DNA of 35,520 bases from a virus, in the IMG/VR virus record IMGVR_UViG_3300028920_001971, positions 1-35,520 of that record. One strand, written 5' to 3'. The translations under genes were made by a program, and so were the position numbers. Positions 230 through 33,406 of the stretch are shown here, piece after piece. The notes beneath the pieces were generated by a model that saw nothing but the letters and a program-made list of their open reading frames with translations, ran no database searches and had not been told where the DNA came from. Position 1 is the stretch's first letter, and each line of letters begins with the position of its first letter.

Positions 230-541
230 TTAAAGTGGTTCGATTACCCCCAAACAAACACAGCTGTCTGTTCCACCGCCTTCGGTGTGGACATTGATTC
301 CATCAGGAAAGATTAGGGGTGGAGAGAAATTTTCAAAGTGTGAACCAGCCCCATCATCAGCCTCTATTTTCCAAACAACCGCTCCGGTTTTAGCATTTTT
401 CAAAGTTACGTGAAGATCGGCCTCGGTCGGTTTAGCTGATAAAAAGGCCAGCCTTGTTGAACGCTTGATTGCGTCGGTATTTGTTGCCGCTTGGCTAGTA
501 ACAGAAATATAAATTGGTCGGGCGTATCTTTCGACTACCAT
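230..541 (-). CDS. Putative beta-rich virion protein, last gene of the late operon
   Basis: Encodes 103 residues with no recognised family. The sequence alternates hydrophobic and polar residues (for example YISVTSQAATN and GAVVWKIEADDG), with Gly/Pro-rich turns in the C-terminal third. This resembles a small beta-sandwich structural protein. It starts immediately after the stop of the upstream zinc-finger gene (TAA-ATG junction), so the two are translationally linked, and a terminator hairpin follows. A head, neck or adaptor role is inferred from position only. There is no signal peptide or membrane segment. Confidence 0.6.
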   Translation of the reverse strand: MVVERYARPIYISVTSQAATNTDAIKRSTRLAFLSAKPTEADLHVTLKNAKTGAVVWKIEADDGAGSHFENFSPPLIFPDGINVHTEGGGTDSCVCLGVIEPL

Positions 542-1138
542 TTAAAGTTGGCCTCCTTTTCTTCTGGTTGGTTTCTGGCCTGGTGTGCCTTTTCGGCGGG
601 TTTGTTCTAAGCCCTCGCCATACCAAGTGACATTGTCCCTGTCTTTTGCCTCTACACCACCGCTGGTATTTGGCATACCCTCGGCCTCGTCTGGGCTAAC
701 CAGTTCGGTTTTGCCTGTCCCTGACTTTTCTGCTCCGATAACAAAAGCCTCCGGCTTGGCTTCAGGAATCTCATTTAAAATCTTTTGAGCTTCCTCCGAG
801 AGCTTGTGGCTTCTCATGTGGCCCTTCAGGGCAATCTCCGTGTTAGTTTTAAAATCACACAGCGGGCACTTAAATTTCTTCTCTTTCATCCGCTCTAATA
901 CTTTGTCGACATCTCTTGGTTGGACTTCTTCTAGGAAGCCATACTTTCTTAGCAAGTAGTCAGCCACATCCAACCTAAACTTCTTCAGTTCATTCGGGGC
1001 GATTGAATAGACGGCTGGCTTTTCAATCAGCTTGCCAGTAGGAACATTTCCTTCTCTAGCTCCGTAAATAGTCGAAATTTTAGCCTTGTTCGGCTGGTTG
1101 TTAAACTCTCTTGGATTATAGATTAGTTTATAGTTCAT
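542..1138 (-). CDS. Late-operon protein with a classical C2H2 zinc finger
   Basis: Encodes 198 residues. Residues 91-111 form a textbook C-X2-C-X12-H-X3-H finger (C91, C94, H107, H111) beginning CPLCDFK and ending GHMRSH. Residues 1-85 are a mixed helical domain with an arginine/lysine-rich segment, and residues 120-198 are low complexity and basic at the end (RRKGTPGQKPTRRKG). C2H2 fingers usually bind nucleic acid or protein. In a capsid-side operon this could be a DNA-contacting virion or packaging protein, which is inference. The gene lies between the Ser/Thr-tail genes and the terminal gene, with junctions of 0-2 nt. Confidence 0.75.
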   Translation of the reverse strand: MNYKLIYNPREFNNQPNKAKISTIYGAREGNVPTGKLIEKPAVYSIAPNELKKFRLDVADYLLRKYGFLEEVQPRDVDKVLERMKEKKFKCPLCDFKTNTEIALKGHMRSHKLSEEAQKILNEIPEAKPEAFVIGAEKSGTGKTELVSPDEAEGMPNTSGGVEAKDRDNVTWYGEGLEQTRRKGTPGQKPTRRKGGQL

Positions 1139-1140
1139 AA

Positions 1141-1437
1141 TTAAATAGTTGTGCTGGTGCTCGTACTCGTTGTCGTCGACGTGCTCGTCGAGGTTGAAGT
1201 CGACGTGCTTGTTGTGGTCGTCGAGGTCGAAGTTGAGGTGGTTGTCGTGCTTGTGCTCGTCGAGGTTGTCGTCGAGAAAAGACGGCCATACCAGGCACTC
1301 CCATACCTTAGTTTAAGTATATTTCTAGTGCTATCATAATAGATTTGCCCAGTTTCCGGATCGCCTGGAGGAGTTGTTTTGCTCTCTATCCGGCCTTCGT
1401 AGTTTTGAAAATGGGTGGCGTTTGTTTTTAAGCTCAT
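1141..1437 (-). CDS. Small fiber-like protein with a 43-residue Ser/Thr tail (paralogue 1)
   Basis: Encodes 98 residues. Residues 1-54 form a short head domain with the motif GQIYYDSTRN followed by LKLRYGSAWYG. This matches the 'GD-x-YY-x-T ... Y-x-G-x-x-W' motif common in phage fiber and tail proteins. Residues 55-97 are almost only Ser and Thr in T-rich blocks, a mucin-like tail. It is the last of three tandem paralogues directly downstream of the major capsid gene. A virion-surface appendage that could be O-glycosylated is inferred. The plus-strand open frame over this stretch (Leu/Val-rich) is a by-product of the repeat. Confidence 0.75.
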   Translation of the reverse strand: MSLKTNATHFQNYEGRIESKTTPPGDPETGQIYYDSTRNILKLRYGSAWYGRLFSTTTSTSTSTTTTSTSTSTTTTSTSTSTSTSTSTTTSTSTSTTI

Positions 1438-1932
1438 TTTATGCTGATGTTGATGTACTAGTCGTCGTTGACGTGCTTGTACTGGTTGTTGTTAAAAGTA
1501 TTCCTTCCCATTGAGTACCAGTGTATCTTTCAATGGTTTTGTTAGTTGTATTGAAATAAACATCGCCGGTTTCAGGGCCAGATGGCCTTGAGGCAAACAT
1601 AACTATCTTGCCCTTCAGGTTGCTTACGTGTGTTGCTTGTTCTTTTAGACTGCTCATATTTTCATTATACCTTATACCGTTGTACTAGTGCTAGTTGTCG
1701 TTGATGTGCTCGTGCTTGTACTGGTCGTGGTCGTTGTGCTCGTGCTAACCGTCGTCACCGATGTGCTGGTTGATGTCGTTGTTGTTGATGTGCTAGAACT
1801 AGTCGTTGTTGTTGTGCTGGTGCTGGTTGAGGTTAATGTTGTCGTTGTGCTGGTAGATGTAGTAGTAGTAGTGCTACTTGATGTTGAGGTCGAAGTTGTT
1901 GTTGTTGTGCTAGTACTAGTTGATGTCGTTGT
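1144..1932 (-). repeat. Ser/Thr codon repeat tracts in three paralogous genes
   Basis: Three tracts (1144-1275, 1442-1492, 1675-1932) are built from ACN and AGY/TCN codons, giving imperfect 3- and 6-bp periodicity. They encode the Ser/Thr tails. Synonymous variation within the tracts argues for selection on the protein rather than a pure slippage artefact. The tracts are nevertheless of a kind that can expand or contract, and the three lengths differ (about 43, 16 and 85 codons). Confidence 0.85.
1439..1657 (-). CDS. Small fiber-like protein with a short Ser/Thr tail (paralogue 2)
   Basis: Encodes 72 residues. The head domain (1-55) is homologous to its neighbours: GDVYFNTTNK followed by ERYTGTQWEG. 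Residues 56-71 are Ser/Thr only. It is the shortest of the three paralogues, and its tail is about a fifth as long as that of the 1672-2076 gene, so tail length varies strongly between copies. It is adjacent to the next gene with a 1-nt gap. The role is inferred as for the other two copies: a small virion surface protein. Confidence 0.7.
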   Translation of the reverse strand: MSSLKEQATHVSNLKGKIVMFASRPSGPETGDVYFNTTNKTIERYTGTQWEGILLTTTSTSTSTTTSTSTSA

Positions 1933-2076
1933 AAGGTCAACACCACGCCAATTAGTGCCATCATACCTCATCCATGACCGATCAGTAGATTGATAAAACT
2001 CATCGCCACTAGTAGAAACAGGTGGATTAGAAGTTCTTGTTTTCAATCTGCCTGCGAAAGACCTATATTTTGTCAT
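1672..2076 (-). CDS. Small fiber-like protein with an 85-residue Ser/Thr tail (paralogue 3)
   Basis: Encodes 134 residues. Residues 1-48 contain GDEFYQSTDR and MRYDGTNWRG, the same fiber-type motif as the two downstream paralogues. Residues 49-134 are Ser/Thr with only a few Val and Leu. It is the first gene after the major capsid gene and has its own promoter candidate: a -35 TTGACA at 2107-2112 and a -10 TAAACT at 2084-2089. That places +1 about one base before the ATG, so the local mRNA would be leaderless. A second ATG five codons' worth of bases upstream (2081-2083) is out of frame and stops quickly. Confidence 0.75.
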   Translation of the reverse strand: MTKYRSFAGRLKTRTSNPPVSTSGDEFYQSTDRSWMRYDGTNWRGVDLTTTSTSTSTTTTTSTSTSSSTTTTTSTSTTTTLTSTSTSTTTTTSSSTSTTTTSTSTSVTTVSTSTTTTTSTSTSTSTTTSTSTTV

Positions 2077-2083
2077 TTGTCAT

Positions 2084-2163: not shown

Positions 2164-3084
2164 TTACCCTGAATAGGATGAGCCGTCGCCTAAACTGCCC
2201 CAGACACCTCGCCAATCAGTCCAGCCACCGACGCCTCGGAATCTGCTCTTGAACAGAGCCATTCCGGAATCGAAGGCAACATCCTGCTTGAACTCTGGTT
2301 TTACTCTCCAGAGCCAAAGCAGTTTGGCCTGACTCTTGTCGATCAAGAACCAAATGGTGTCGTTGACAGTAATATACTCCCAAGCAACTACCTTAAATTT
2401 GCCTTGATAAACATTGATGTCATTATCAGCAGTTCCAGGTCGTCCGCTAGAACCAACTAAGATTCTCGCTTCTTTCTCAAGATTCAAAGGAACAACTAAT
2501 ACATCAGGATTAACCTGAATAATCATTCCCCGATCATCGAGTTGCTGACGAGCGGCCAACATCCCTGTTTCCAAGTTGGTATCAGTTAAAGTGATGCCGT
2601 TGGAATCAGCGTTGGACTGAGCTGAACCGCCATCGGAACGATCGTGGTCAGTGGAACAAAGTTCCTCACCATCTCCACCATCTGCGTAGGAGCTGTTAAA
2701 GGCTCTGTTTAAGATGTTGGAAGTGATGGTTTCCACGCTTCGCCGAGCGGCACGCCCCATCTGAGCTGGCTTGCCTTTCATCACATTATATTGATCGTCC
2801 TCGTAAAGTTCCTCAGAGATTTTGAACCCCTTAGTGTACTTGACGTGGGTCAGAGTCACATCGTACATCTGCACCGGATCATCATAATTGATTTGGGCAC
2901 CCTCATCAGTCTGGTGGTAAAGGCCGAAGCCGGTTACGCCAGAATACTTCTCATCTTGCTTAGAAGAAGAATCAACATTGAAAACCTGCGGATACACTTC
3001 AGGCTCTTCCTGATAGGCATCATCAAAGATTTTCTTGAATCCTGGTTCTAGTAAGTCGCCGAAATTTGATCTATAGCTTGCCAT
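2164..3084 (-). CDS. Major capsid protein (HK97-fold, gpT-like)
   Basis: Encodes 306 residues, within the usual size range for HK97-fold capsid proteins. It begins with a helical N-arm (FGDLLEPGFKKIFDDAYQEEP), continues with a stretch like KYTKGFKISEELYEDDQYNVM typical of gpT/Mu-like capsid proteins, and has a P-domain-like segment around residues 180-220 (PDVLVVPLNLEKEA). The C-terminal part includes an FKVVAWEYI strand and the GVGGWTDWRG loop. Its position directly after the decoration protein and scaffold supports the call. No SD is visible before the ATG, which is odd for an abundant product. It lacks a recognisable N-terminal protease-processed delta domain, consistent with a separate scaffold gene. 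Confidence 0.88.
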   Translation of the reverse strand: MASYRSNFGDLLEPGFKKIFDDAYQEEPEVYPQVFNVDSSSKQDEKYSGVTGFGLYHQTDEGAQINYDDPVQMYDVTLTHVKYTKGFKISEELYEDDQYNVMKGKPAQMGRAARRSVETITSNILNRAFNSSYADGGDGEELCSTDHDRSDGGSAQSNADSNGITLTDTNLETGMLAARQQLDDRGMIIQVNPDVLVVPLNLEKEARILVGSSGRPGTADNDINVYQGKFKVVAWEYITVNDTIWFLIDKSQAKLLWLWRVKPEFKQDVAFDSGMALFKSRFRGVGGWTDWRGVWGSLGDGSSYSG

Positions 3085-3099: not shown

Positions 3100-3648
3100 C
3101 TAATGTGTTTCGCGTTCAAAGGAAAACAACTGCGGAGCGGAGATTGTTACCAGACATTTGCTGGCATCACCGTCCTCATCTGGGTCGAGTTTCAAAATGA
3201 AAACCTGGCCATCATCCTCAGTTGTCTCGCTTTCATCAACCTGATCGTGGTCAGCCAAGTCACAATGTAGATACTCGTCAGCCGGATTGGTAAAGTCTCC
3301 GTCAGCATCGTTGTACCAAATCGCAAACGGATCAGCGATAACGATCGCCTTGACCTTTTTATCGGTCATGTTGTCGCTTGCCGCCACGTAAGTTTGGGTA
3401 GACGAAGTCCAAGCGCCATCATAGCTGCTTGGATTGGCATTATCTAAATCAATGCCATCGTCATTCACAATCCCGACACAGACTCCCAGCACTGGGTTAG
3501 TAGCCCCAGCCGCTGCTCTGGTAATCCCTGCACTATCATTGTAAACCATGTCGCCCACTTTAATAGTAGCGCTGTTTTTGATGGTACAATGAAGAGTAAC
3601 AGGGTTTTCAGACCCATTCAGTTGTCCTCGATACTCAAAACCTGCCAT
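3100..3648 (-). CDS. Head decoration protein-like (DUF2190-type)
   Basis: Encodes 182 residues. The N-terminal region reads NPVTLHCTIKNSATIKVGDMVY, then AAAGATNPVLGVCVGI. This is the 'gDlV ... a.a.a...i.GV..g' pattern of capsid decoration/DUF2190-like beta proteins. The C-terminal half is acidic (DPDEDGDASKC). It lies between scaffold and major capsid genes, the usual location for such a protein. There is a good SD (GGAGGTGA) upstream of the ATG at 3648. The product probably binds the capsid exterior. Confidence 0.7.
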   Translation of the reverse strand: MAGFEYRGQLNGSENPVTLHCTIKNSATIKVGDMVYNDSAGITRAAAGATNPVLGVCVGIVNDDGIDLDNANPSSYDGAWTSSTQTYVAASDNMTDKKVKAIVIADPFAIWYNDADGDFTNPADEYLHCDLADHDQVDESETTEDDGQVFILKLDPDEDGDASKCLVTISAPQLFSFERETH

Positions 3649-3684: not shown

Positions 3685-4512
3685 TTACTTCTGAGGAGGT
3701 TTTGCTAAGTCCTTTTTGGCCTTAATATAATCCTCCGCAGATATCCCCATCCTGCTTGCTACGGCTCTTTCTTCCGGTGTCAGGGTAGTGGATTCTCCCC
3801 CAGTCCCAGAAGCAGCGGATAAGGATCCAATAGAGGCTTGACGATTCTCCTCAGCCGTGAGGAGACCCTTGCCTTGTCCTGCCAACTTATCGACGTTGGC
3901 TAAAACATAGGCTCCTTCCAAAAACTTAGGTAACCGATCAAGAGGCACGCTGTTCAACAGTTGTTGAACGGGCTTTGTTCCGCCTGGGTCAAGGATGTCG
4001 GCGAAAGCAGTCGCAAGTTTTCCTTGCTCACTCTTCCGCTCATCATCTGGTAACTTGTCCAGACCGTGCTTCCTGTAAAAGTCCACTAACATTTGGTTTT
4101 GAAGGGCTCGTCGAGTGTCATCAGCCTGAGGCGTTGCCTCTGGCGTCGACCCAGTCTTCGCCTCTTCGCCGCCTTTAGGGGTTTCAGTCTTACCGCCCAA
4201 ATAGTCTTTCATCCAATCGACTACTTGCTTGTAACGAGTCGGGTCAGAATAGATAGAGGAGAGTAAAATCTCGCTATCTTTCTTGATTTGCCGAGCTTCC
4301 TTTACTTCGGCCGACTGCTCGCCCAGTTTTTTCTCTAAATTCTGATAAGCCTTAGTTAGCTCCTCGACCGATTTGCCCTGAAGCTTATCAGGAACTTCTA
4401 AAGGTGCTTCGTCAGTTTTTTCTTCACCGGTCTCTGAGCTGACGCTCTCAGGCGGTTGCTCTGATGTCTGCCCCTCATCTTCGGAGGGAACATCCTTATC
4501 ATCTTTTGCCAT
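3685..4512 (-). CDS. Capsid scaffolding protein
   Basis: Encodes 275 residues and is highly charged. The N-terminus is acidic and disordered (residues 1-45). It is followed by a predicted coiled coil with LQGKSVEELTKAYQNLEKKL at about 44-63 and more charged helix to about residue 85. A Pro/Thr/Gly linker follows, then a helical region, and the tail is basic (IKAKKDLAKPPQK), as expected for the capsid-binding end of scaffolds. Position between the lysozyme-like gene and the decoration and capsid genes supports the call. The start has an SD (AAAGGAG). The repeated 12-mer TTGACAGAATAT lies 39 nt upstream. Confidence 0.75.
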   Translation of the reverse strand: MAKDDKDVPSEDEGQTSEQPPESVSSETGEEKTDEAPLEVPDKLQGKSVEELTKAYQNLEKKLGEQSAEVKEARQIKKDSEILLSSIYSDPTRYKQVVDWMKDYLGGKTETPKGGEEAKTGSTPEATPQADDTRRALQNQMLVDFYRKHGLDKLPDDERKSEQGKLATAFADILDPGGTKPVQQLLNSVPLDRLPKFLEGAYVLANVDKLAGQGKGLLTAEENRQASIGSLSAASGTGGESTTLTPEERAVASRMGISAEDYIKAKKDLAKPPQK

Positions 4513-18125: not shown

Positions 18126-18154
18126 TTGAAATTACTTAGAATTTGTGGTATCAT
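18126..18154 (+). promoter_or_regulatory. Promoter of the glycan operon
   Basis: TTGAAA (18126-18131), a 17-nt spacer and TATCAT (18149-18154) with the extension TGG directly before it. The expected +1 is near 18161 and the first ATG is 18163, so the first gene is probably leaderless or nearly so. It is the only clear promoter before the 17-kb block of overlapping genes. Confidence 0.6.
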
Positions 18155-18162
18155 GGAGGACA

Positions 18163-19536
18163 ATGGAGACAAGTAAATCTGCGAAACCAAAAGTATGTAT
18201 CTTCACCAACTTCTTTAATTTTGATGAGGCATACAGCCTGATCCGCGTCACTGAAGACCAGATCAAGATGTTCAAAAAGCACGATTATCCTTTAAAGGTG
18301 ATCGTATCGGACAGCTTTAAACCAGCTGGTGAATTTACCGAAGACATTTTGGAGAGAGTCCCTAATGTCCCCTGCCACAATGAGGTTAAGAAAGATCCGA
18401 CCTTTGACGAAGATGTTGAGTCAATCCGCAAGCGACTAGCAGAAATCTTAAAAGACATTGATGTTTGTATCACGCAGGACATTGCCTACAAGCCTTCCGA
18501 GCTGAAATACCAAGTCGCCCTGAGGAAGCTCCTAACCAACCAAGATGTTTTCGGGGGGATTGTGTTCTATCATTGGATTAACTCCGCCACCCCGCCGGTA
18601 GTGTTAGGGAATTTGATGGGGATGTTTGAAGACGAATACTTAAACTTGTTTAAAAAGCCGATCCCCAATTCTTACTACGTTTTCTTCAACGACATCTCAA
18701 AAGAGATGATCGCCACGAATTTTAATGTCCCCTTAGAAAAAGTAAAGACAGTTCATCACCCCTGCGATTTGGATCGCATCTATGGAGTCACTAGCGACCA
18801 TCTAAAGGCTTTTATTGACAAAAGGGATGTGTATAGTGCCGACGCCATCTGTGTTTATCCTATTCGCTTAGATCGGGGCAAGCAAGTCCAGCACGTTATC
18901 AAGACAATGGCGAAGGTAAAAGAGTTTGACTTGTCTGTCCGGTGTATCATTGTCGACTTCCACTCATCCGGTGGGGATAAAGTTACTTACAGAGACGAAC
19001 TAAAACAACTTGGTATTGACTGGGGCTTATCACCCAAAGAACTGGCTTTCACCTCGGAGTTTTGTGAGGATTGGAATGTCGGCATCCCTGGGGATGATGT
19101 TCTTGCTTTGTTCAGACTAAGTAATGTTTTCATCATGCCGTCGGTCAGCGAAAGCTATTCTCTAATCACGCAAGAGGCGGCTCTGACTAAGAATGTCATT
19201 GTCTTAAACCAAGACTTTCCTCCTTTCCGAGACATCTTCGGCGATAAGGCAATTTTCAGGAAATATTCTTCTAATTGGGATGTGCTGGCTGGCTACAATG
19301 AGGCAATGGGAGAGGGCAAACATTCAACCACCGAGTATGGCCCGAACAACATTTCCAAAGATGAGAGGAAAAAGTACGAGGAAATGTACCACTTTGAAAC
19401 CGCCGCCAAGATTGTCAACGAGCTGAACACCGGCTTGGCGATGGCAATGCAAAGACGAATTAGAAAACTAAGGTCGCTGGACGCTGTGTTTAAAAAAGAA
19501 ATAGAACCATTACTTTATCTGGAGTCGGATGGATAA
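18163..19536 (+). CDS. GT-B glycosyltransferase (GT4-like)
   Basis: Encodes 457 residues from ATG 18163; an upstream GTG at 18145 lies within the promoter and is not preferred. The C-terminal donor domain has AICVYPIRLDRGKQVQHVIKT and the acidic motif FIMPSVSESYSLITQEAALTKN, the 'S-E-x-x-x-L-x-x-x-E' signature of GT4 retaining transferases, then GDKAIF. The N-terminal domain starts KVCIFTNFFNFDEAYSLI. No membrane segment, so cytoplasmic. It is the first gene of the glycan operon and overlaps the sugar dehydrogenase by 8 nt. Donor sugar cannot be read from sequence. Confidence 0.8.
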   Translation: METSKSAKPKVCIFTNFFNFDEAYSLIRVTEDQIKMFKKHDYPLKVIVSDSFKPAGEFTEDILERVPNVPCHNEVKKDPTFDEDVESIRKRLAEILKDIDVCITQDIAYKPSELKYQVALRKLLTNQDVFGGIVFYHWINSATPPVVLGNLMGMFEDEYLNLFKKPIPNSYYVFFNDISKEMIATNFNVPLEKVKTVHHPCDLDRIYGVTSDHLKAFIDKRDVYSADAICVYPIRLDRGKQVQHVIKTMAKVKEFDLSVRCIIVDFHSSGGDKVTYRDELKQLGIDWGLSPKELAFTSEFCEDWNVGIPGDDVLALFRLSNVFIMPSVSESYSLITQEAALTKNVIVLNQDFPPFRDIFGDKAIFRKYSSNWDVLAGYNEAMGEGKHSTTEYGPNNISKDERKKYEEMYHFETAAKIVNELNTGLAMAMQRRIRKLRSLDAVFKKEIEPLLYLESDG

Positions 19537-20305
19537 CGCTATAGTTCATGGGTATGGCGTGGTTGGCAAGGCGACTGCCCATGCCTTTGGAATAAAAGAC
19601 TATATTGACTTGAAAGAAAGCACGATTTCGATCAAGGATTCAGCCAGATTAAGGTATCACTTCATTTGTTTACCGACTCCTGTTAAAGACCATCACTACT
19701 TCATCGACGATATTAAAAAGTTAATTTATCAGCTTGTCGATATCGGTGGCGGGCAAAAGGTTTTCATTATCCGCTCGACCATGCTCCCTGGTACTTGTCG
19801 CTACTTGATGGATCAGTGTAAAACTGAGGCGATTGTCCATGTTCCGGAGTTTTTGTCCGAAACCACTTGGAAAAAAGACGCGGAGAATCCCGATCTGGTA
19901 GTAATTGGTGGAGACTTAGACAACTACCGCAAGGATGTGGTTGGTATTTTCAAAGTCCGCTATAAGGGGGTAGATATTATCGAAACTGATACCGCTACCG
20001 CCGAGCTAATAAAATGTACTCGCAACGCCCTTTATTCCACAAAAGTTATTTTCGCCAACGAGATTTATGAATACGCCCAGAAGACAGGTGCGAACTATGG
20101 GACAATCAAAGATGCCCTCTATAAGAGTAAGTATATTGGTAAAAACCATCTCGCGGTTCATTATCAGCGGAAAGATTGGGATCAGCCGAAAAGAGGCCTG
20201 AACGGGAAATGCCTGCCCAAAGATCTTGATGCCCTTGCTGAGGGAAGCAGGTCAGAATTACTTATTTTAGTTAGGAAGCTAGCAGAATTTTACGGAGGAA
20301 AATGA
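19529..20305 (+). CDS. UDP-glucose/GDP-mannose dehydrogenase family protein, short form
   Basis: Encodes 258 residues. The Rossmann start is HGYGVVGKA (7-15). FICLPTPV, IIRSTMLPGT and PEFLSE are the following family blocks. The central helix AELIKCTRNALYSTKVIFANE and the catalytic-Cys loop NGKCLPKDLDAL (C228) are intact. Full-length enzymes are about 400-450 residues, and the C-terminal nucleotide-sugar domain is missing here. Such short forms occur in phages and may still act as dimers. Expected product is a sugar acid nucleotide (for example UDP-glucuronate), supplying the transferases. Activity without the C-terminal domain is uncertain. Confidence 0.75.
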   Translation: MDNAIVHGYGVVGKATAHAFGIKDYIDLKESTISIKDSARLRYHFICLPTPVKDHHYFIDDIKKLIYQLVDIGGGQKVFIIRSTMLPGTCRYLMDQCKTEAIVHVPEFLSETTWKKDAENPDLVVIGGDLDNYRKDVVGIFKVRYKGVDIIETDTATAELIKCTRNALYSTKVIFANEIYEYAQKTGANYGTIKDALYKSKYIGKNHLAVHYQRKDWDQPKRGLNGKCLPKDLDALAEGSRSELLILVRKLAEFYGGK

Positions 20306-20464: not shown

Positions 20465-21508
20465 ATGAAAAAAGGACTCACATCAATAATAATCGCCGTC
20501 GCTAACACCGAGTATTTCCAGTGGCATTACACGGGGAATTGTTTGGGTCGAGTGAGAGAACACACGCCGGAAGACCACGAGGTCATCATCATTGACAACG
20601 GCTCAACTCACGGCAAGGATATGTACGCCAAATACTGCGACAAATACCACCGCTTCGAGGAAAACCAGGGCGTATCTAAGGCATGGAATAAGGGAATAGA
20701 ACTAGCTGAGGGGGAGTTTATCTGTATCCTAAACAACGACGTCGAAGTGTTTGAGTATTGGCTGGGAGATTTACTGCAGGGGTTGCAGTTCGTTGACGTG
20801 ATTATGTCCCACCCAATGTATGACGAAGCGTATGGTCGGGCAGTCGAGTCAGCCAACCGGAGAAAAGAGTGGCTAGACAAACCATACGAGGAGTCGCTTG
20901 AAGATTTTAAAGACTTCTCCTGCTTTGCTTTCAAACGAGAACTGGTTGACAAACTGGACAAGCCATTCTTTGACGAAAACATTGTCCTAGGTTATGGCGA
21001 GGATGTTGACCTGACTAAAAGGGTAGAGGCCATCGGGGGAAAACTGATGTCCACCCAGCGCGTCCGCACTTTACACATTATAGGCTCAACCTCGCACGGG
21101 ATGAAGAAGGAAGACTTTGAAAAGCACGGAGTAAAAGATATCGGCGAAGCAATGAACAAGAACAAGGAGTATATCGAATTAAAATACACAGAAACCAAGC
21201 CCCCGAAAAAGGGGATAGTTCGCACCTCACAAACCGGCGACAAGATTTACCTTATCAAAGAGGGCAAGCGCCACTGGATCACCAATCCAGACACCCTGAA
21301 AGCACTGGGTTTTAGTTTTGGGGAAGAAAAGCTGATTAGCCATAAAGAATTATTAAAAATACCAGAGGGAGAACCACTAAGCATGGCTCTACCTGGCGGG
21401 GAAACTTTATCACCTCCAGAAAAAGGGCAGTCATCCCCGCCAGTTAAGCCAGTCTTGGGGTACAGAAAAGACGCTAGTTTAGAAACATTCGAGAAGTACA
21501 ATGAGTAA
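20465..21508 (+). CDS. GT2 glycosyltransferase with a C-terminal surface-repeat-like domain
   Basis: Encodes 347 residues. Residues 1-230 are a GT-A transferase: SIIIAVANTEYF, EVIIIDNGST (39-48), NQGVSKAWNKGIELAEG and ILNNDVEVF with NND (90-92) as the metal site, then CFAFKRELVDKL and GYGEDVDLTKR, the general-base region. Residues about 250-305 carry KIYLIKEGKRHWITNPDTLKALGF ... ELLKIPEGEPL in order, resembling a short repeat known from secreted or surface proteins. The end is Pro/Ser-rich. Fusion of such a module to a cytoplasmic transferase is unusual and could bind glycan or target the enzyme. Confidence 0.75.
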   Translation: MKKGLTSIIIAVANTEYFQWHYTGNCLGRVREHTPEDHEVIIIDNGSTHGKDMYAKYCDKYHRFEENQGVSKAWNKGIELAEGEFICILNNDVEVFEYWLGDLLQGLQFVDVIMSHPMYDEAYGRAVESANRRKEWLDKPYEESLEDFKDFSCFAFKRELVDKLDKPFFDENIVLGYGEDVDLTKRVEAIGGKLMSTQRVRTLHIIGSTSHGMKKEDFEKHGVKDIGEAMNKNKEYIELKYTETKPPKKGIVRTSQTGDKIYLIKEGKRHWITNPDTLKALGFSFGEEKLISHKELLKIPEGEPLSMALPGGETLSPPEKGQSSPPVKPVLGYRKDASLETFEKYNE

Positions 21509-21725
21509 AGGAACGCCATCGTTTACTATAAAAGAAATAACTAAGGCCTGGTATAAATTCACCGAGCCAAAGTATCTAATCAGTAATGAGGAAATAGACC
21601 CTGATTCACTAAAACCAGGCAGGGTTATTGAATGTAATGACCCATCGTCGATAAGGGGAATGCCCATTGATTATTCGAGGTGGATTCCTTATTTAATTTC
21701 GAAAGAATGGAAAGATGAAGCCTAA
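21501..21725 (+). CDS. Small protein of unknown function in the glycan operon
   Basis: Encodes 74 residues: IKEITKAWYKFTEPKYLIS, DPDSLKPGRVIECNDPSSI, DYSRWIPYLISKEWKDEA. No family is recognised; aromatic and soluble. It overlaps the previous gene by 8 nt and the next by 11 nt, so it is translated as part of the series. Confidence 0.55.
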   Translation: MSKGTPSFTIKEITKAWYKFTEPKYLISNEEIDPDSLKPGRVIECNDPSSIRGMPIDYSRWIPYLISKEWKDEA

Positions 21726-22455
21726 ATACTCAATAATCACTCCGGTGCACGTCTACGACGAGTGGCGGTTAGATATGCTGGTCAGGGCGGTAGAGAGTGT
21801 CCAAAAGCAAACCTACCAGAACTTCGAGCACATCATTATTGATGACGGGTCAGTCGTTCCCTTTAATTTCAAAGGCTATGACAGGGTTAAGATTCTCCAC
21901 CAGCCCCACTTAGAAAGGATCAGAGCTTACAACCTTGCTTTTGAGAAGGCCGAAGGAGAGTGGATTTGTATGTTGGACTCAGACGATGAGTGGGCCAGTT
22001 ATTATTTAGAGGCGTGTAATCAGATGATGGTTCAACACCCAAAAGCCAAGGTGTTTAACTTCGGCTCAATTCACATCTCACTCGATTACAAGGCTACGCC
22101 AAGGGGAACATTTAAGCCGGAGAAAAAAGGCAAGGGCCATGTCAACTTCGGCGGGGGCAATATTGTCAACGGCACTTATATCTTTAAGAGAGAATGTCTG
22201 AAAAAGACCGGCGTTTTTCCCGACACCAGTAGCCCGTGGGATATGTCCACGATGGCTCAAGAAAAATACCCAGAACTAAGAGAGAATTTCATGGTCGACC
22301 ACGTTAATGAGCCGGAGAAAATCGTTAAAGAATTAGGCAATCCCTGGGGAAATGATTTCCTTTTATTTTATATGTTGACCAGGGAGTACCACTCCGTACC
22401 CTATGACTGTAACCTTTATATCGTCCATCCGAGCCGAAAGGAGCATAAGCTGTAA
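21715..22455 (+). CDS. GT2 glycosyltransferase
   Basis: Encodes 246 residues. The GT-A start is YSIITPVHVYDEW with HIIIDDGSVVP, then AYNLAFEKAEGEWICMLDSDDEWA, where DSDD is the metal/nucleotide-binding DxD. The acceptor side has FGGGNIVNGTYIFKRECLKKTGVF. No membrane helix. One of ten transferases in this operon. Sugar specificity cannot be deduced. Confidence 0.8.
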   Translation: MKPKYSIITPVHVYDEWRLDMLVRAVESVQKQTYQNFEHIIIDDGSVVPFNFKGYDRVKILHQPHLERIRAYNLAFEKAEGEWICMLDSDDEWASYYLEACNQMMVQHPKAKVFNFGSIHISLDYKATPRGTFKPEKKGKGHVNFGGGNIVNGTYIFKRECLKKTGVFPDTSSPWDMSTMAQEKYPELRENFMVDHVNEPEKIVKELGNPWGNDFLLFYMLTREYHSVPYDCNLYIVHPSRKEHKL

Positions 22456-22475
22456 GTGGAAGGAGGTAAGTAATA

Positions 22476-22691
22476 ATGATTAGAACTCAAGTTTATATTT
22501 CAGAGAGAACTCACTTCCTTCTAAAAAGGATAGCTGAGCAGAAAAAGACAACCCTTTCTAAATTAGTAAGGGAATATCTTGAAAAAGGAGTCAGCGTTGA
22601 TAGAAAGTTATTACGGCGTTCACTGAGTAGTTTAATAGGAATTATAAAAGGTGGGCCTAAAAACCTATCAGAAAAGATGTGGGAAGCATGA
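22476..22691 (+). CDS. Ribbon-helix-helix DNA-binding protein
   Basis: Encodes 71 residues. MIRTQVYISERTHFLLKRIAE forms the ribbon and first helix, and TTLSKLVREYLEKGV the second helix, a standard CopG/Arc-type RHH domain (residues 1-42). The remaining helix ends LSEKMWEA. The SD is the strongest in the operon (AAGGAGGT). No toxin is encoded next to it, so an operon regulator is more likely than an antitoxin. It overlaps the next transferase by 4 nt. Confidence 0.75.
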   Translation: MIRTQVYISERTHFLLKRIAEQKKTTLSKLVREYLEKGVSVDRKLLRRSLSSLIGIIKGGPKNLSEKMWEA

Positions 22692-23440
22692 TTGATCCAA
22701 TCGACATTGTTATCTTAACTTGGAACCGAAGGGCAATGACGGAGAAGTGTCTGACCTATTTAAACAATCGGACAAAGTATCCGCATCGCATCTTCGTGGT
22801 TGACAACCACTCTACTGATGGCACTGACGAGCTTTTAAGGTCGTTCGAGAAGAAGGGCAAGATCTTTCACTGGGTACGGATGAGCAAGAATGTCGGTGTC
22901 CACATGGGCTGGAATGTCGGCCTATCGTTACCAATGAGTGAGCACTACATCACCGCCGATAATGACCTTTATGTCCCCGACCACGACCCCGACTGGCTGG
23001 AACAACTGGTCAGTCTAGCCAAAGCCAACCCAGATTACGGAGCAATCGCTCTCCAGCCTCACACTTTCTTAGGTTCTTCTATGCCTGAGCCAAACAAGAA
23101 TGGACTGATTGAATACCCCCATTGCGGAGCAGTATTCCGGATAATGAAAACAGAGAACGTCCGCAAGGTGGGCGGCTGGCGGCACACCTACGACAGCAAG
23201 CGGAACGACGAAGAAAGATTTATCTGCGGGAAAATACGTAATATGCTCGGACTCAAGACTGGCTATGTTGACAAATTAAAGTGTTGGCACGACTTTGGGG
23301 CTGACGACAACTGGGGCTATGACAAGATCAAGCCCCACGATCACGGGCATAGGATTCCTGGGGAAGAGATTTGGCCTACCCCGAATATGTTAAACAAGAT
23401 TGAACTATACGATAAAAAAACATGGGAACTAAAACAATAA
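22688..23440 (+). CDS. GT2 glycosyltransferase
   Basis: Encodes 250 residues from ATG 22688, which overlaps the previous stop as ATGA; a GTG nine bases earlier is possible. IDIVILTWNRRAMTEKCL and RIFVVDNHSTDGTDELL are the GT2 nucleotide fold, and SKNVGVHMGWNVGLSL and ITADNDLYVPD (DND as DxD) follow. AVFRIMKTENVRKVGGW and RNDEERFICGKI fit the acceptor/base region. No membrane segment. Confidence 0.8.
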   Translation: MIDPIDIVILTWNRRAMTEKCLTYLNNRTKYPHRIFVVDNHSTDGTDELLRSFEKKGKIFHWVRMSKNVGVHMGWNVGLSLPMSEHYITADNDLYVPDHDPDWLEQLVSLAKANPDYGAIALQPHTFLGSSMPEPNKNGLIEYPHCGAVFRIMKTENVRKVGGWRHTYDSKRNDEERFICGKIRNMLGLKTGYVDKLKCWHDFGADDNWGYDKIKPHDHGHRIPGEEIWPTPNMLNKIELYDKKTWELKQ

Positions 23441-23952
23441 AAGAGTTCTACCAGAAACAGGAAGACATCGGCTTGACCGGCTGGATTAGTTTAGAAGAGG
23501 CCAGGTTCTTAAAAGAGCAAGCTGAGAAACTTAATCCTGGTGATGTTTACCTTGAGATTGGTGTGGCTTATGGGCGGAGTTTATCAATCGTTGCTAAGTA
23601 TGCTTTCACCAAAGAGGTTTATGGGGTTGATATCCTTAACTGGAAAGAGAGAGAGGATAACCTGAAGAAATTAAAAGTGAAAGCTAACTTTATTGAGGGC
23701 AACTCCCAGGCTCTTGCCCTCACTTGGAAGAAGCCGATTGACCTATTATTTATTGACGGCGATCACACCTATGAAGGAGTAGTGAAGGACATTGACTCAT
23801 GGCTACCGAAGGTCAAAGACGGAGGAATGGTTATGTTCCACGACTATTGTGAGCGAGAACCAGGGGTAATGCAGGCGGTACAATTCATTCAGGGCCACTA
23901 TCGGAAGTCTGGGATCGTCGGAACTATTTACTGGTTTACTAAAGATGACTAA
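23422..23952 (+). CDS. Class I methyltransferase, family-24 type
   Basis: Encodes 176 residues. VYLEIGVAYGRSLSIVA is the SAM-binding motif I. DLLFIDGDHTYEGVVKDIDSW and GGMVMFHDY are the hallmark blocks of Methyltransf_24/CmcI-like enzymes that O-methylate sugars and other small substrates. Homologous to the protein at 29346. It overlaps the transferase before it by 19 nt and the methyltransferase after it by 8 nt. Confidence 0.8.
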   Translation: MGTKTIKEFYQKQEDIGLTGWISLEEARFLKEQAEKLNPGDVYLEIGVAYGRSLSIVAKYAFTKEVYGVDILNWKEREDNLKKLKVKANFIEGNSQALALTWKKPIDLLFIDGDHTYEGVVKDIDSWLPKVKDGGMVMFHDYCEREPGVMQAVQFIQGHYRKSGIVGTIYWFTKDD

Positions 23953-24547
23953 ATCGTACTGGGAAACATTTTCGGGAGCTTACCAAATGGGGCCGCAGAA
24001 GCACCGCCTCTTCCTGTTAAAGAAACTGAAAGAGAGAAGAGTTAAGAGTATTTTAGATGTCGGCTGCGGGACTGGTTGCTTGTGGGACCTGATTGACTGG
24101 CAGGTGGTCTACAAGGGGGTAGATTACTCCCACGCCATGATTAAGACTTGTAAAAAAACATTTCCTGAAGTAATCTGGCAGGTACAAGATGCTCGTCATC
24201 TCGATGAAGAAGATAACTCGTGGGAAGCAGTCGTTTTAATGCACTGCCTCGACCATCTTGACAACTACCAAGCGGCGATTAAGGAAGCAGCAAGGGTGGC
24301 TAGGAAATATGTATTTATCATTCTTTGGCGACCTCTGCTGGAAAAAGGGACTAACTTAAACAGCGTCAACACGATGCACAAGAAGCCTGGCGAGAAACCA
24401 TGGAACGACACCCACTTACAGGAATATTCTGCTAAAGTATTACTCAAAGAGTTTAAGAAAAATAAACTTAAACTAGTGCGAGGCTACTCAGGCAATGAGA
24501 TCAACGACAAGGGCAGTTACAATACTATGTTTATCTTAAAGAAATGA
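23945..24547 (+). CDS. Class I SAM methyltransferase
   Basis: Encodes 200 residues. SILDVGCGTGCLWDLIDW is motif I, VYKGVDYSHAMIKTCKK motif II, and AVVLMHCLDHLDNYQAAIKEAARV motif IV with the usual post-I spacing of UbiE/Methyltransf_25-type enzymes. The C-terminal part has NTMHKKPGEKPWNDTHLQEYS, unlike quinone methylases and probably substrate-specific. In this context a sugar or glycan methyltransferase is likely (inference). Confidence 0.8.
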   Translation: MTKSYWETFSGAYQMGPQKHRLFLLKKLKERRVKSILDVGCGTGCLWDLIDWQVVYKGVDYSHAMIKTCKKTFPEVIWQVQDARHLDEEDNSWEAVVLMHCLDHLDNYQAAIKEAARVARKYVFIILWRPLLEKGTNLNSVNTMHKKPGEKPWNDTHLQEYSAKVLLKEFKKNKLKLVRGYSGNEINDKGSYNTMFILKK

Positions 24548-24756
24548 ATGAACTTGGAATAATAATAATCTTACTTGTTTTACTTGTAATAGCAACTTAT
24601 GACTATATTCGATTTAAAAAACTGTTAAAAAGAATGAAAGATAATAACGAGCCGCTAAGTCTTTCGGAGGCTTTTGATAAGCGGATATCTGATTTATTTA
24701 AAGAAAGCTACAGGCAGGAATCTCAAATTTTTAAAGATATCTTCAAAGTAAAATGA
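24544..24756 (+). CDS. Small membrane-anchored protein in the glycan operon
   Basis: Encodes 70 residues. Residues 4-22 (LGIIIILLVLLVIATYDYI) form one transmembrane helix, then a charged cytoplasmic-type tail with heptad-like helix (SLSEAFDKRISDLFKESYRQE). It overlaps both neighbours by 4 nt. It is one of very few membrane proteins here and could tether glycosylation enzymes to the membrane; this is speculation. Confidence 0.6.
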   Translation: MNELGIIIILLVLLVIATYDYIRFKKLLKRMKDNNEPLSLSEAFDKRISDLFKESYRQESQIFKDIFKVK

Positions 24757-25550
24757 GTCCGAAACACAACACCACCATCATTATTCCACACCTCGGCAAG
24801 AGCGAGGAGTCAAAGTACGCCTTAAAGCAATGCGTCGATTCTTTAAAGATGACCTGCGATCTGCCGGTAATTTTGGCGGCTAACGGAGGCTATGCCAAGG
24901 GAGACATCAACATTAAAGAGCAGGGCCAGTGCAAGGCAGTAAATGAGGCGGTTAAGCAAACCAACGACAGCTGGTTGTTCGTTACCAATGACGACATGGT
25001 TTATCCGCCTGGCTGGTGGGAAAAACTAAGTAATTTTGTTAAGTATAATCCTAAAATTAAGTGCGTTTCCCCAAACCTGTGTGAGCCACGGCCAGGTGCA
25101 CCACCTTTTAAAACTTACTTTTGCGGAGGGGCGGGTGGAGATTTTAATAAGGAAAAGTTCTATGCTTATGCCGAGTTCTTCCAAGACTTCCGGCTTAAAG
25201 AGGGCTTTAATCTCCCCTTTCTAATTACCCGTGAGCTTTGGGAAAAGATTGAAGGCTACGACGAAAACTACGACCCATGGGGAAGCAATGGCGACAGCGA
25301 CCTACAAACCAAGATTTACTTAGCCGGAGAAAAGACCTGGCGGTATTACAACGTCTTAATCTATCACTTCAGTCAGACATCAGGCACTTTCCACCCCGAC
25401 CAAAGAAAATACTGGCAGGAAAATTGGGACTACTTCATTAAAAAGTGGGGCTTCCCCCGACAGGGCGACGACCAGAAGATTTGGTACAGCAAGGAATTAA
25501 TTGATTACGAGAAGTTAATTTACAAACCAAAATGGGCGAAACTAAAATAA
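24753..25550 (+). CDS. GT2 glycosyltransferase
   Basis: Encodes 265 residues. TTIIIPHLGKSEESKYAL and VILAANGGYAKGD form the nucleotide fold. WLFVTNDDMVYPPGWW carries NDD as the DxD. PFLITRELWEKIEGYDENYDPWGSNGDSDLQTKIY is the acceptor/base region. Soluble and cytoplasmic. It overlaps the following CgeB-like transferase by 19 nt. Confidence 0.78.
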   Translation: MSPKHNTTIIIPHLGKSEESKYALKQCVDSLKMTCDLPVILAANGGYAKGDINIKEQGQCKAVNEAVKQTNDSWLFVTNDDMVYPPGWWEKLSNFVKYNPKIKCVSPNLCEPRPGAPPFKTYFCGGAGGDFNKEKFYAYAEFFQDFRLKEGFNLPFLITRELWEKIEGYDENYDPWGSNGDSDLQTKIYLAGEKTWRYYNVLIYHFSQTSGTFHPDQRKYWQENWDYFIKKWGFPRQGDDQKIWYSKELIDYEKLIYKPKWAKLK

Positions 25551-26509
25551 ATTTCATCGGGAACTTCGGCTCAGGCTATGTCGGCGAAGTCGCTGACGAG
25601 ACTCACCTGGCTGATAATCTGGAGAAATTAGGCTGTAAAGTCAGGCGGGTACCGAGAGATATCTGGAAAGCCTACTGCGACGGGGAATGGAGCAAAGACT
25701 GGAAGAAGAAACTGCCGATAGAGGCCGACTTCTCAATTATTGCCAAATGGCACCACTTCAACAAGAAAGACTATGTCCAGATTCTTCAGCACCGCTTTAA
25801 AAGCAAAGTCTTTTACTGGGTGTGGGATTATATGTGGGACTATCCCGCCACCCACCCGATAGACTGGCATCAGTGTATGGCCGAAACCGCCGATTTCCTT
25901 TTGACTAATGAGGGCGGGCTGATCCCCTCCTATCAGAAGCTAGGGATCAACGCTTATTATTTTCCCTTTGACTGTGCTGACGAGAAGATCAGGCGGTTTC
26001 CCTACGAACCCACTAAGGATGTCATTTTTACCGGCTCATATCTTGGTCAGGGTGATCGGGTTGAGTGGCTAAAGATTATCAATAAAGAAATCCCCGTAAA
26101 GATTTATAGCTGGAACCACGAAGAGTGGAAAAAGGATGGCTTCGAAGCCCATCCAGCGGTGTATGGGGAAGAATTTAACCGGCTGGTAGCTGAATCAAAA
26201 ATCTGTTTACAATTCTCAGTCAACGACCACTGCTGGGGGTACTGGAGTAATCGGGTCGGCAAGGTTTTATTGGCGGGCGGGTTCTTATTGGCCCGCTACG
26301 CCCCAGGCATGGAGATTTTCTTGAAAGACGGGGCTGATTATTTCCACTCTCCAGAAGAGGCAATCAGTAAGATAAAGCATCACCTTTCAGACGACAGAAT
26401 ATCGCGCAAGATAAGAGAACGGGGAAGATTCCTGGGCGAAGCCCACTTTTCTTCACTCCAGCGCTGTAAAGAACTACTTATTTTATTGAAAAGTTATGAA
26501 AAAAAATAA
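25532..26509 (+). CDS. GT-B glycosyltransferase, CgeB-like
   Basis: Encodes 325 residues. The N-terminal domain has NFIGNFGSGYVGEVADETHLADNL. The C-terminal domain has DVIFTGSYLGQGDRVEWLKII and, near the end, WSNRVGKVLLAGGFLLARYAPGMEIFLKDGADYFHSPEEAISKI, the typical block of CgeB/Glyco_trans_1_2 proteins ('R..E.la.GG..l......l...f.dg.d...f.s..el'). CgeB-type enzymes are implicated in decorating spore coats and viral or surface glycans. No membrane helix. Confidence 0.78.
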   Translation: MGETKINFIGNFGSGYVGEVADETHLADNLEKLGCKVRRVPRDIWKAYCDGEWSKDWKKKLPIEADFSIIAKWHHFNKKDYVQILQHRFKSKVFYWVWDYMWDYPATHPIDWHQCMAETADFLLTNEGGLIPSYQKLGINAYYFPFDCADEKIRRFPYEPTKDVIFTGSYLGQGDRVEWLKIINKEIPVKIYSWNHEEWKKDGFEAHPAVYGEEFNRLVAESKICLQFSVNDHCWGYWSNRVGKVLLAGGFLLARYAPGMEIFLKDGADYFHSPEEAISKIKHHLSDDRISRKIRERGRFLGEAHFSSLQRCKELLILLKSYEKK

Positions 26510-27257
26510 GCCGCTTACCTCGATCATCATGCCCGCCTATGATGTTACAGATATCAGCCGCGCCCTTACAAGGGCAGCATTGTTCCTGATTTTCAAATAC
26601 ACCGACGAGGCTGACTACGAACTGCTTTTCATGGACACTATCCCGCCTGGAAGCAAAGAACACAGCCTCTTTGATACTTATAATGTCCTTCAGCTCGGCG
26701 AAAGGGAAGATCGCCAATGGATCAAATTGTATTGCGACAAGGAAGAAAACCCTGGCCCATACGCCATGTATAACCGCGGGGCAAAACTCGCTAGGGGTGA
26801 TTACTTATGCTTTATCCATACCGATATCCTTGTTGAGGACAATTGGCTGAAAAACCTGCGCTACTACCTTGATGGGGGACATTGCTCGGCAGTCATGCCC
26901 GACCAGAGAAACCACTGCCGAGAAGATATCCTCTACTACCAACAGGCAGACTATTTGGATAGCAGAGTACTGAACGAAACCCTGCGCGAGGCAGGATTGA
27001 TCATGATGACCAGAAAAGCATTTGAAGATGTCGGCGGTTGGCCAGAAGATATCCGCATCTACTATGGTGAAAAGGTAATGTACCCACGGCTTACAGGAAC
27101 CAAAAACAAGCTGATTTGTACAGCTAAATGCCAGATCCACCATGTTGCCATGGTTAACTACAAAAGCCGCGTAGCCAACGACTATGACAATCTGCTTAAT
27201 GATAAGAATATCAGCGGCGCGGCAATTAAAGAGTACGACGAAGGAAGGAGAAAATGA
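26496..27257 (+). CDS. GT2-like glycosyltransferase with an HTD metal motif
   Basis: Encodes 253 residues. TSIIMPAYDVTDISRAL is the GT-A start, then PGPYAMYNRGAKLARGDYLCFIHTDILVEDNWL, where HTD occupies the DxD position. VMPDQRN and GLIMMTRKAFEDVGGWPEDIRIYYGEKVMYPRL match the acceptor side. The HTD variant is found in some active GT2 enzymes. It overlaps neighbours on both sides (14 and 4 nt). Confidence 0.75.
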   Translation: MKKNKPLTSIIMPAYDVTDISRALTRAALFLIFKYTDEADYELLFMDTIPPGSKEHSLFDTYNVLQLGEREDRQWIKLYCDKEENPGPYAMYNRGAKLARGDYLCFIHTDILVEDNWLKNLRYYLDGGHCSAVMPDQRNHCREDILYYQQADYLDSRVLNETLREAGLIMMTRKAFEDVGGWPEDIRIYYGEKVMYPRLTGTKNKLICTAKCQIHHVAMVNYKSRVANDYDNLLNDKNISGAAIKEYDEGRRK

Positions 27258-28375
27258 AAACCTGTCGGATTGACGACATCCCATTCGACGACCATAATGA
27301 TCCTCGCACTTGGAACAGAAAGATTGGGGGAAAATTCAAAGACATTAAAGGCTATCATATTGGCGGCAACTCGGTGGTTGTCCCGCCGGAGATGATGGAC
27401 GAGAAACTGCCGGAGATAATTAAACACTATCCAAACCTCGACCTTTGTGCCAAGATCAATATCAGGTACATTAACCAGACCTATAACTTAGACAAATATA
27501 CGATCAAGAATATCGCTTGGCTTAATGGTTTCGGGCCAAGAGTTTATCAGGTATTTGATGTCAAATGCGGCGAACAATTATGCTACCACGCTCACCTAAT
27601 GGAATACATTCGGGGTTCACACCCCAGCACTAATAAAGCAATCAAACTTTGGGTGAAATACGAAAAGAAATTTGAAAAACACCACATCAAGTTCTTCGGC
27701 CGCGATCTATTCCCCTCAAACTTTATCGGCAGGAGGCTGATCGATTATGATGAGTTCTATTTAGGCAATAAAAAGGCCTATGCCCGCCGAGTCAGGCGGG
27801 ACTATAAGAAACACACCTTTTGGGGCAATCCGGCTTCCCCCTACCAGGATATTCCCATGCTAAGAATCAAGGGGTGCCGGAGTTACGACCGCTTCAGGCT
27901 GTTGGGAATGGACAAGCTGGATTTAGAAGGCAAAACAATCCTTGACATTGGTTGTAGCGGTGGACAAGTGTTATTCTGGGCGGCGGAAAGAGGGGCGGCT
28001 AGAATTGTTGGCCTGGATACCCCCGCAATCGCCAGGGTTACTTTCGAGTTAGCTAACCTTTACCACTACTTCAACATCGAGACAATCGGGTGCGACTTAA
28101 ATGAGGACAATATCGTTGAGCTCGTCAAGAAACAGACCGGCCTGGATAAGTTTGACTATGTAGTTATGTTTTCGGTCAACGCCCATATTGGTTTTCACCA
28201 GTACATGAAAGACCTTTGTGGCGGAACTCTTTTTCTGGAAACTAACGCCGCCAAAATGCCGGAGGTAGAGAGAGTAGAATATCCAGAAATACTTAAAAAG
28301 ATGGGCTATACTAAGTTTGAATATAAAGGACAGGTCAATGAATCTGGAGGAAGGAGCTTGTTTAGATGCCAATAA
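27254..28375 (+). CDS. Fusion of a kinase-like domain and a SAM methyltransferase
   Basis: Encodes 373 residues. Residues about 30-190 show the order of kinase landmarks: LCAKINI (K67, beta-3 Lys), [11 protein letters not shown], hinge HLMEYIRG (114-121), catalytic loop [10 protein letters not shown] (D151, N156) and metal motif LIDYD (D164, D166). Residues 221-373 are a class I methyltransferase, with [21 protein letters not shown] and [17 protein letters not shown]. The pair of activities recalls WbdD, which phosphorylates and methylates the end of an O-antigen chain, although WbdD has the domains in the opposite order. A glycan-capping role is inferred. Confidence 0.65.
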
Positions 28376-28893
28376 CTATCGGCAGAGACACTACCCTAGA
28401 TGAGGATCACGAGCTGGCTGATATGTTTTACCCGCAGGATGTAAAGATCGGCAAATTCTGTCAAATCGGGCCTAGAGTAGTTTTCTGCGGAGCGATTAAC
28501 CACATTACCGTTACCCATCCGAAGGCGGTAACTCCCTACTCCTTCGCCTACCACTGGAAGCTGCCCTATTTTGAGTATACCGTCAGCCGCGGCCCCATCA
28601 AAATCGGTCATGATGTTTGGATAGGTAGGGATGTCTTTATCCTTGATGGTGTTAAGATCGGCACAGGAGCGACAATCGGAGCGAAATCAGTCGTTGCCAA
28701 AAATATCCCCCCCTATGCGGTGGCTACCGGCAATCCGGCAAGGGTCAGGCACTACCGATTTAAACCAGAACAAATTAAAGCTCTATTAAAAATCAAATGG
28801 TGGAACTGGTCTAATAAAAGGATCAGGGAAAGGATCGAAGACTTCAAGGATATTGATGTCTTTATCAAAAAGTATGGGCATAAAAATGGGTGA
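28366..28893 (+). CDS. Hexapeptide-repeat O-acetyltransferase (CatB-like), copy 1
   Basis: Encodes 175 residues. Left-handed beta-helix repeats are clear in [15 protein letters not shown] and [38 protein letters not shown] loop with [12 protein letters not shown] fits the catalytic His region of xenobiotic-type acetyltransferases. [13 protein letters not shown] is the family's end motif, and the C-terminal [13 protein letters not shown] helix is typical of the CatB group. It probably O-acetylates a sugar using acetyl-CoA. Paralogous to the next gene. Confidence 0.85.
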
Positions 28894-29377
28894 CTGCTCC
28901 CATATCGGCAAGAACGCCACCTGCTACTTTCCCCAGGAGGTAGTGATTGGCAAGTACTGTGCGATTGCTGAAGAAGTAATCTTTTGCGGAAAAATGAACT
29001 ACCCCTGGGTTGCCAACCGCAATTCCGTGAACTCTTATCCGCTCGGCGTCCAGTGGGGAGGAGAAACAAACGTTGGCGTCAACCGAGGGAAGATCGAGAT
29101 CGGCAATGATGTCTGGATTGGCTATCGGGCTACTATCCTTGACGGAGTAAAAATCGGCGACGGGGCAATAGTCGGCCTAGGAGCATTAGTCGCTAAAGAT
29201 GTTCCGCCTTACGCGGTAGTCGTCGGCAACCCAGCCAGAATTGCTCATTACCGCTTTTCCAATAAGCAGATAGAGTCTCTTTTAAAAATTAAATGGTGGG
29301 ACTGGGACATAAAAACAATTAAGAAAAGAAGGGAGGATTTTAACAATGTCAATCGTTTCATTGAAAAGTATCGCTGA
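28886..29377 (+). CDS. Hexapeptide-repeat O-acetyltransferase (CatB-like), copy 2
   Basis: Encodes 163 residues from ATG 28886; in-frame ATGs at 28874 and 28853 are also possible but overlap the previous gene more. [43 protein letters not shown] and [13 protein letters not shown] mirror copy 1, and the C-terminal [12 protein letters not shown] helix is also conserved. The substrate loop differs ([15 protein letters not shown] instead of [13 protein letters not shown]), so the two may acetylate different sugars or positions. Tandem duplication is evident. Confidence 0.82.
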
Positions 29378-33246: not shown

Positions 33247-33406
33247 GGAAGTAATCGTCGAATCGTTTGAAAAGGTAAGGGCGGCGCGGGAAGCAGACCC
33301 AAGGCTGACCGCAAAACAGGCAATCGACATTATTAAGAAAGTAATTGTGGAAAGGGGGGTATTAGATGAGCGTCCCGTTCGGAACAAAGGCGGACTACCT
33401 AAGTAA
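33239..33406 (+). CDS. Small protein in the glycan operon (55 residues)
   Basis: ATG 33239 to TAA 33404-33406: MSKEVIVESFEKVRAAREAD, LTAKQAIDIIKKVIVERGVLDE. Helical and charged. It overlaps the previous stop by 8 nt and the deacetylase start by 41 nt, which is longer than the other overlaps, so it is less certain. Function unknown. Confidence 0.4.
   Translation: MSKEVIVESFEKVRAAREADPRLTAKQAIDIIKKVIVERGVLDERPVRNKGGLPK

Follow-up and report, generated by a model that had tools for sequence, protein, structure and literature searches.

Many uncultured phages pair proteins that end in tails of Ser and Thr with one glycosyltransferase (GT) gene, and thus the virus studied here probably makes its own sugar coat on such tails. 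The window, which is the whole stretch of 35,520 nucleotides analysed, is an IMG/VR virus contig (IMGVR_UViG_3300028920_001971) with three tail-bearing genes and a glycan island that begins with a GT of cluster c8 (Table 1). In our assessment, it is likely that the three genes encode small proteins of the virion surface, on which the Ser/Thr tails serve as acceptors for a phage-built glycan. The original prediction had described the tails as O-glycosylation acceptors; this reading, drawn from sequence, now gains from the GT linkage, the portability of the tail, and the absence of membrane proteins in most islands. Taken together, the results point to a system, widespread in uncultured phages, that makes its own glycoprotein coat and for which there are an evident acceptor tag and a transferase candidate.

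Table 1. Features of the window that bear on the Ser/Thr tails and the glycan island
Feature	Position (nt)	Strand	Basis or remark
Cluster c19 small protein (~100 aa)	230..541	-	synteny
Cluster c6 protein, single C2H2-type zinc finger, WYGEGL-type C-terminal motif	542..1138	-	close to tail genes in most relatives
ST-tail gene 3	1141..1437	-	98 aa: ~54 aa head + 43-residue tail + Ile
ST-tail gene 2	1439..1657	-	72 aa: ~55 aa head + 16-residue tail + Ala
ST-tail gene 1	1672..2076	-	134 aa: ~48 aa fibre-type head + 85-residue Ser/Thr tail + Val
Major capsid protein (Mu gpT-like / Phage_capsid_4, HK97-type)	2164..3084	-	PF25209 1.6e-16, PF10124 2.4e-16, phrog_371 3e-24
Cluster c4 protein before capsid gene; decoration/cement candidate by position	3100..3648	-	synteny
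Scaffold/protease-like protein (cluster c3)	3685..4512	-	phrog_328 1.6e-4, PF10123 0.0035; synteny
First island glycosyltransferase c8, GT-B fold, GT4-like; candidate priming O-glycosyltransferase	18145..19536	+	PF00534; alignment A3; Foldseek
UDP-glucose/GDP-mannose dehydrogenase-like protein, short (258 aa)	19529..20305	+	PF00984, PF03721; alignment A5
Glycan island: GT2 and Glyco_trans_1_2 GTs, methyltransferases, hexapeptide acyltransferases, GNAT, DegT aminotransferase, DUF2334, sulfotransferase-like (weak)	20465..35496	+	family matches

The three tail genes are adjacent on the minus strand and come directly after the major capsid gene; in relatives, the orthologue of gene 1 is likewise the first gene past the capsid gene. 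The open reading frames and translations confirm three capsid-adjacent paralogues with tails of 43, 16, and 85 residues, as had been predicted. When the gene-1 tail is counted as 86 residues, 4 of them are not Ser or Thr (L, V, V, and the terminal V). Since Ser and Thr make up 10.7% of eight other window proteins, the tails are not a product of chance (p ~1e-42 for a pure 43-residue run), and since they draw on every Thr codon and on several Ser codons from each of the two classes, they are not a simple in-frame DNA repeat. In almost every tail gene, a single residue other than Ser or Thr closes the run: V in most gene-1 tails, G in many gene-2 tails, and L in most gene-3 tails. The promoter that had been proposed for these genes (2112-2084, 10/12) did not hold up, as 4 such sites were found compared to 2.2 ± 1.7 in shuffled sequences, which is chance level.

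The head domains are homologous to one another and to heads in other contigs, and their matches to PHROG tail-fibre and virion structural families are weak yet repeated (phrog_8309 in 16/26, and phrog_21412 (tail-fibre) and phrog_20787 (virion) in 6/26 each), in agreement with the predicted common fibre-type head. The ~50-aa head (G-D-E-Y-x-N...W-x-R-Y-x-G-x-x-W) resembles parts of phage fibre or virion proteins (PHROGs 8309, 1325, 20787, and 21412), most of which are much longer and extend beyond this domain, whereas here the Ser/Thr tail alone follows the head. The motif GDEY[FY]NTT also occurs on ordinary fibre and other proteins in ~20 contigs, all without such a tail. The head alignments A1 and A2 were too variable for scanning a collection, a scan of genome contigs with a single head gave no match, and PDB sequence searches with the head and with the c8 GT gave no real relative. 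Foldseek searches with the tail-protein model returned weak matches only, to fibre or collagen-like viral proteins.

Using the second tail protein, the capsid protein, and a head-motif DNA pattern as queries, we gathered ~15 further contigs with tandem tail genes. The order in these relatives, on one strand, is scaffold, c4, capsid, the three tail genes (ST1, ST2, and ST3), the c6 zinc-finger protein, a ~100-aa beta-type c11/19 protein, the c8 GT, a UDP-sugar dehydrogenase, and the glycan island, and the operon order from scaffold to island is kept in about a dozen contigs. Most c6 orthologues contain a single C2H2-type zinc finger, and their C-terminal D-G-V-x-W-Y-G-x-G-L is conserved. In two loci (L101:8636 and L105:8197), ST2 and ST3 are apparently fused, with the first head lacking its tail; the L101 fusion retains an Ala/Thr/Pro linker. 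In contig G014, an SU10-type adaptor, a tailspike, and a fibre protein are encoded beyond the island, which thus lies between the head and tail modules, and therefore the Ser/Thr-tail proteins are not obvious receptor binders. Their position in the head operon, together with Ser/Thr tails on a cement protein and on a major-tail-protein homologue, supports a putative location in the virion. In the relatives, the island follows directly on the same strand, but in the window 16 kb separate it from the tail genes and it is read from the opposite strand, which counts against our main reading. Island (18145-35496) and head genes (1-11763) lie at opposite ends and on opposite strands of the window, an arrangement that may reflect a rearrangement or an assembly inversion.

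The original prediction asked whether Ser/Thr tails and phage GTs occur together, and they do. After dereplication, 12 tail contigs were 15 kb or longer, and 10 of them carried GT2 genes, compared to none of 16 controls (p 5e-6). The controls had been picked by a shared motif and were not lineage-matched; PF13524 and PF00534 were likewise missing from all of them. The tail-first DNA pattern retrieved mostly internal Ser/Thr tracts and DNA repeats. A search that starts from the GT is a stronger test of co-occurrence than the tail-first comparison of contigs. The window GT as sole query found no viral relative, whereas the c8 alignment A3, with the tails unused as query, retrieved 69 viral loci. 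C-terminal Ser/Thr tails were present in 57 of these, all encoded just upstream of the GT and on its strand, at a median distance of 1.4 kb, and no Ser/Thr tails were found elsewhere within the c8 loci. Tails occurred in 35 of 38 clusters at ≥44% identity to the window GT and in 8 of 16 assessable clusters below 44%. In three of the remaining c8 records, Ser/Thr tracts lie at other places in the genome. Two observations count against our main reading: several c8 homologues lack a tail in their vicinity (L114-L116, L122, L129/L130, and L133), and a 20-kb contig with all three tail genes (G006) has no c8 GT, 5 kb of downstream sequence included. When the c8 alignment was run against genome contigs, three distant relatives were found, all without tails.

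The carriers of the tail also differ among phages. Beside the GT, a Ser/Thr tail is found on a PF09956 phage cement protein at the c4 position (L127; 26.4 bits vs a cut-off of 24), on a 227-aa protein (L104), and on ~279-aa proteins (L134-L137); in L109, it is on a c11-like protein whose position is equivalent to that of the window c19 protein. Two large contigs with distant c8 homologues, G039 (L144/L281) and G043 (L280), have Ser/Thr or poly-Thr tails on 3 and 4 different proteins, respectively. The poly-Thr-tailed protein in G043 shares homology with a part of the major tail protein known from chi-like phages (YSD1); the chi-like proteins are annotated with a C-terminal Ig-like domain, in place of which the one in G043 has a terminal Ser/Thr tail of 14 residues. 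What the divergent carriers have in common is the tail and the GT, which suggests that the tail may be a portable tag, used on other virion proteins in divergent phages.

We compared tail lengths across 19 triple sets. In gene 1, the shortest tail has 18 residues and the longest 104. Gene-2 tails have 37-41 residues in 14 of the 19 sets (39 Ser/Thr + Gly in many relatives, with the window copy being short), and gene-3 tails have 37-43 residues in 17 of the 19 (coefficient of variation 0.08; the commonest form is 41 + Leu). Among ten gene-3 tails of exactly 41 residues, pairwise Ser/Thr agreement was 36.3 positions compared to 21.7 by permutation, which ignores phylogeny. At agreeing gene-3 positions, 27% of codons were identical; in the first gene-3 set, codon identity was near the usage expectation except in the closest pair, and in fully conserved Ser columns, AGY and TCN codons were mixed nearly at random, even though a switch between them needs two substitutions. 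With synonymous sites saturated, shared ancestry alone is not the cause of the kept Ser/Thr order, and therefore the order of the tail is under protein-level selection. A residue order that persists while synonymous sites are saturated is an unusual sign of selection. It had been proposed that the differing tail lengths imply repeat expansion. This applies mainly to gene 1, since it is variable and, in some of its tails, long stretches of DNA are duplicated exactly, over 53 nt in L058, 36 nt in L003, and 32 nt in L061. Neutral repeat expansion does not predict the near-fixed length and conserved order seen in gene 3 and in a subset of gene 2. Nor does the proposal fit the window tails themselves, as their DNA repeats are 6-16 nt compared to 9-14 after codon shuffling and, without long repeats, no recent expansion is visible.

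A generic acceptor role does not on its own explain the conserved Ser/Thr order, and this counts against our main reading. The order points either to a different treatment of the two residues or to an underlying structural register. Given the favoured length of the gene-3 and gene-2 tails and the selection on their order, Ser and Thr are probably not interchangeable in them, for example for transferase acceptor specificity or glycan spacing, and this raises the question of whether the GT reads Ser and Thr differently. As a more tentative proposal, which we think somewhat doubtful, the tail sequence could be a read code, in which Ser and Thr are glycosylated differently or at set positions, the ~41-residue gene-3 tails specify the glycan pattern or spacing on the virion, and the tag and its transferase can be grafted as a pair onto unrelated phage proteins.

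The near-constant length of gene 3 and its conserved order also resemble structural constraint, so that the tails could instead be capsid bristles that stay unmodified and have a structural or adhesive role (beta-rich Ser/Thr fibres), with the island acting on something else. An AlphaFold2 model of the tail protein places strands in the tail, at a mean pLDDT of 65, which is low confidence. We regard this alternative as unlikely, since unmodified bristles give no explanation of why the tail tracks one GT family across unrelated carriers, and the gene-1 tails vary widely in length.

The c8 protein, ~440 aa long in relatives, has a conserved E-x7-E motif (family alignment A3) and a predicted GT-B-type fold (pLDDT 83), and the closest Foldseek matches are GT4 enzymes such as MshA. 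It counts against our main reading that c8 is structurally nearest to GT4 enzymes that act on small molecules or lipids, rather than to a protein O-glycosyltransferase already known, such as GtfA. A GtfA-type reading of c8 was down-weighted, its best matches being GT4 small-molecule enzymes. In the dehydrogenase, the catalytic Cys (C228) is invariant (alignment A5). No membrane-like segment was found in 7 of 9 islands tested, including that of the window, where the proteins of at least 100 aa were scanned.

Phage GTs are generally known to act often on the O-antigen or on DNA (roles listed in PMC12619734), and the island might accordingly act on the host surface, in serotype conversion or superinfection exclusion, or on the phage DNA, sharing a locus with the tails by chance or co-regulation. 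We consider this quite improbable. The lack of membrane-like segments in most islands argues against host-surface modification, and neither a flippase nor a bactoprenol GT was seen among the Pfam matches of the window island. The scans of window proteins turned up no enzyme of nucleotide hypermodification, and in relatives, the island lies inside a structural operon. It is less probable still that the tails carry another modification, such as phosphorylation or acylation, which the island only elaborates. Ser and Thr accept several kinds of modification, and the island encodes acyl- and sulfotransferase-like proteins, but the window proteins scanned included no kinase, and the most constant neighbouring enzyme is a GT. 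That replication slippage produced the tails, as low-complexity sequence of little function, is hardly credible, despite the varying length and exact duplications of gene 1, because amino-acid order and gene-3 length are kept at saturated synonymous sites (the codon analysis contradicts slippage for genes 2 and 3), and the tails are C-terminal and tied to one GT family.

We therefore return to tails that are glycosylated by the phage, for which the following course can be proposed. Judging from gene position and head type, the heads would attach to the capsid. The c8 GT, to which gene linkage points, would put the first sugar on tail Ser/Thr residues in the host cytoplasm. The dehydrogenase, GT2 enzymes, aminotransferase, and methyl-, acyl-, and sulfotransferases, going by their families, would build and cap the chain, and virions would emerge with sugar-coated bristles around a conventional tail. 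Such a coat may be used for shielding, for diffusion in glycan-rich habitats, or for adhesion. The tag and transferase pair might also give a bacterial route to mucin-like glycopeptides.

The nearest precedent, as far as the sources that cite it describe it, is virion glycosylation in the mycobacteriophages Che8, Corndog, and Myrna, in which phage GTs glycosylate the C-termini of capsid and tail-tube proteins (Freeman et al. 2023, Cell Host Microbe, cited in PMC12619734 and PMC12363180). Both systems have phage-encoded GTs, with GT2 and methyltransferase (Methyltransf_24) families in common. In contrast to the window, with its dedicated tail-bearing proteins, long tails, GT4-like c8, and large island, the Che8 capsid and major tail proteins have short ordinary ends (...KTGS and ...YSDGS) without Ser/Thr tails, and the Che8 GTs are of the GT2 and GT25 types. 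In the comparison with the Che8 GTs gp108-gp110, the window proteins scanned gave no GT25 match, and no c8 homologue was found in the phage collection that includes Che8. In serine-rich repeat (SRR) glycoprotein adhesins, a long Ser-rich tract is O-glycosylated on Ser/Thr inside the cell by dedicated GTs such as GtfA/GtfB, and the proteins use accessory Sec export and reside on the bacterial surface, according to PMC6973325 and PMC7948813. The window also has a Ser-rich tract with linked GTs; unlike in the SRR proteins described there, the carrier is a phage protein, and scans of the window found no accessory Sec export, cell-wall anchor, or GtfA/GtfB families. On these descriptions, SRR proteins are a functional analogue by resemblance, not the same family. 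The components of a Gtr-type serotype conversion cassette (flippase, bactoprenol GT, and membrane-bound GT) were all missing from the window island in Pfam and membrane-segment scans. No description of the tail and GT pairing was found in the open-licence literature, and no c8 homologue was found in 50,697 phage records at the thresholds used; the system would be a variant of virion glycosylation without a match in those records.

Related arrangements were also seen in other contigs. Loci L150 and L189 encode paired small proteins (NNRLKAYVRYDGTGRV...ECCNY) with Thr-rich tails and no c8 homologue, and their contigs carry other GT domains (PF00534, and in one also PF00535). In contig G069 (L276), which has a c8 homologue, two proteins (8930-10129 and 16209-17594) contain internal Ser/Thr tracts of 146 and 179 residues between other protein parts, and other proteins there have C-terminal tails.
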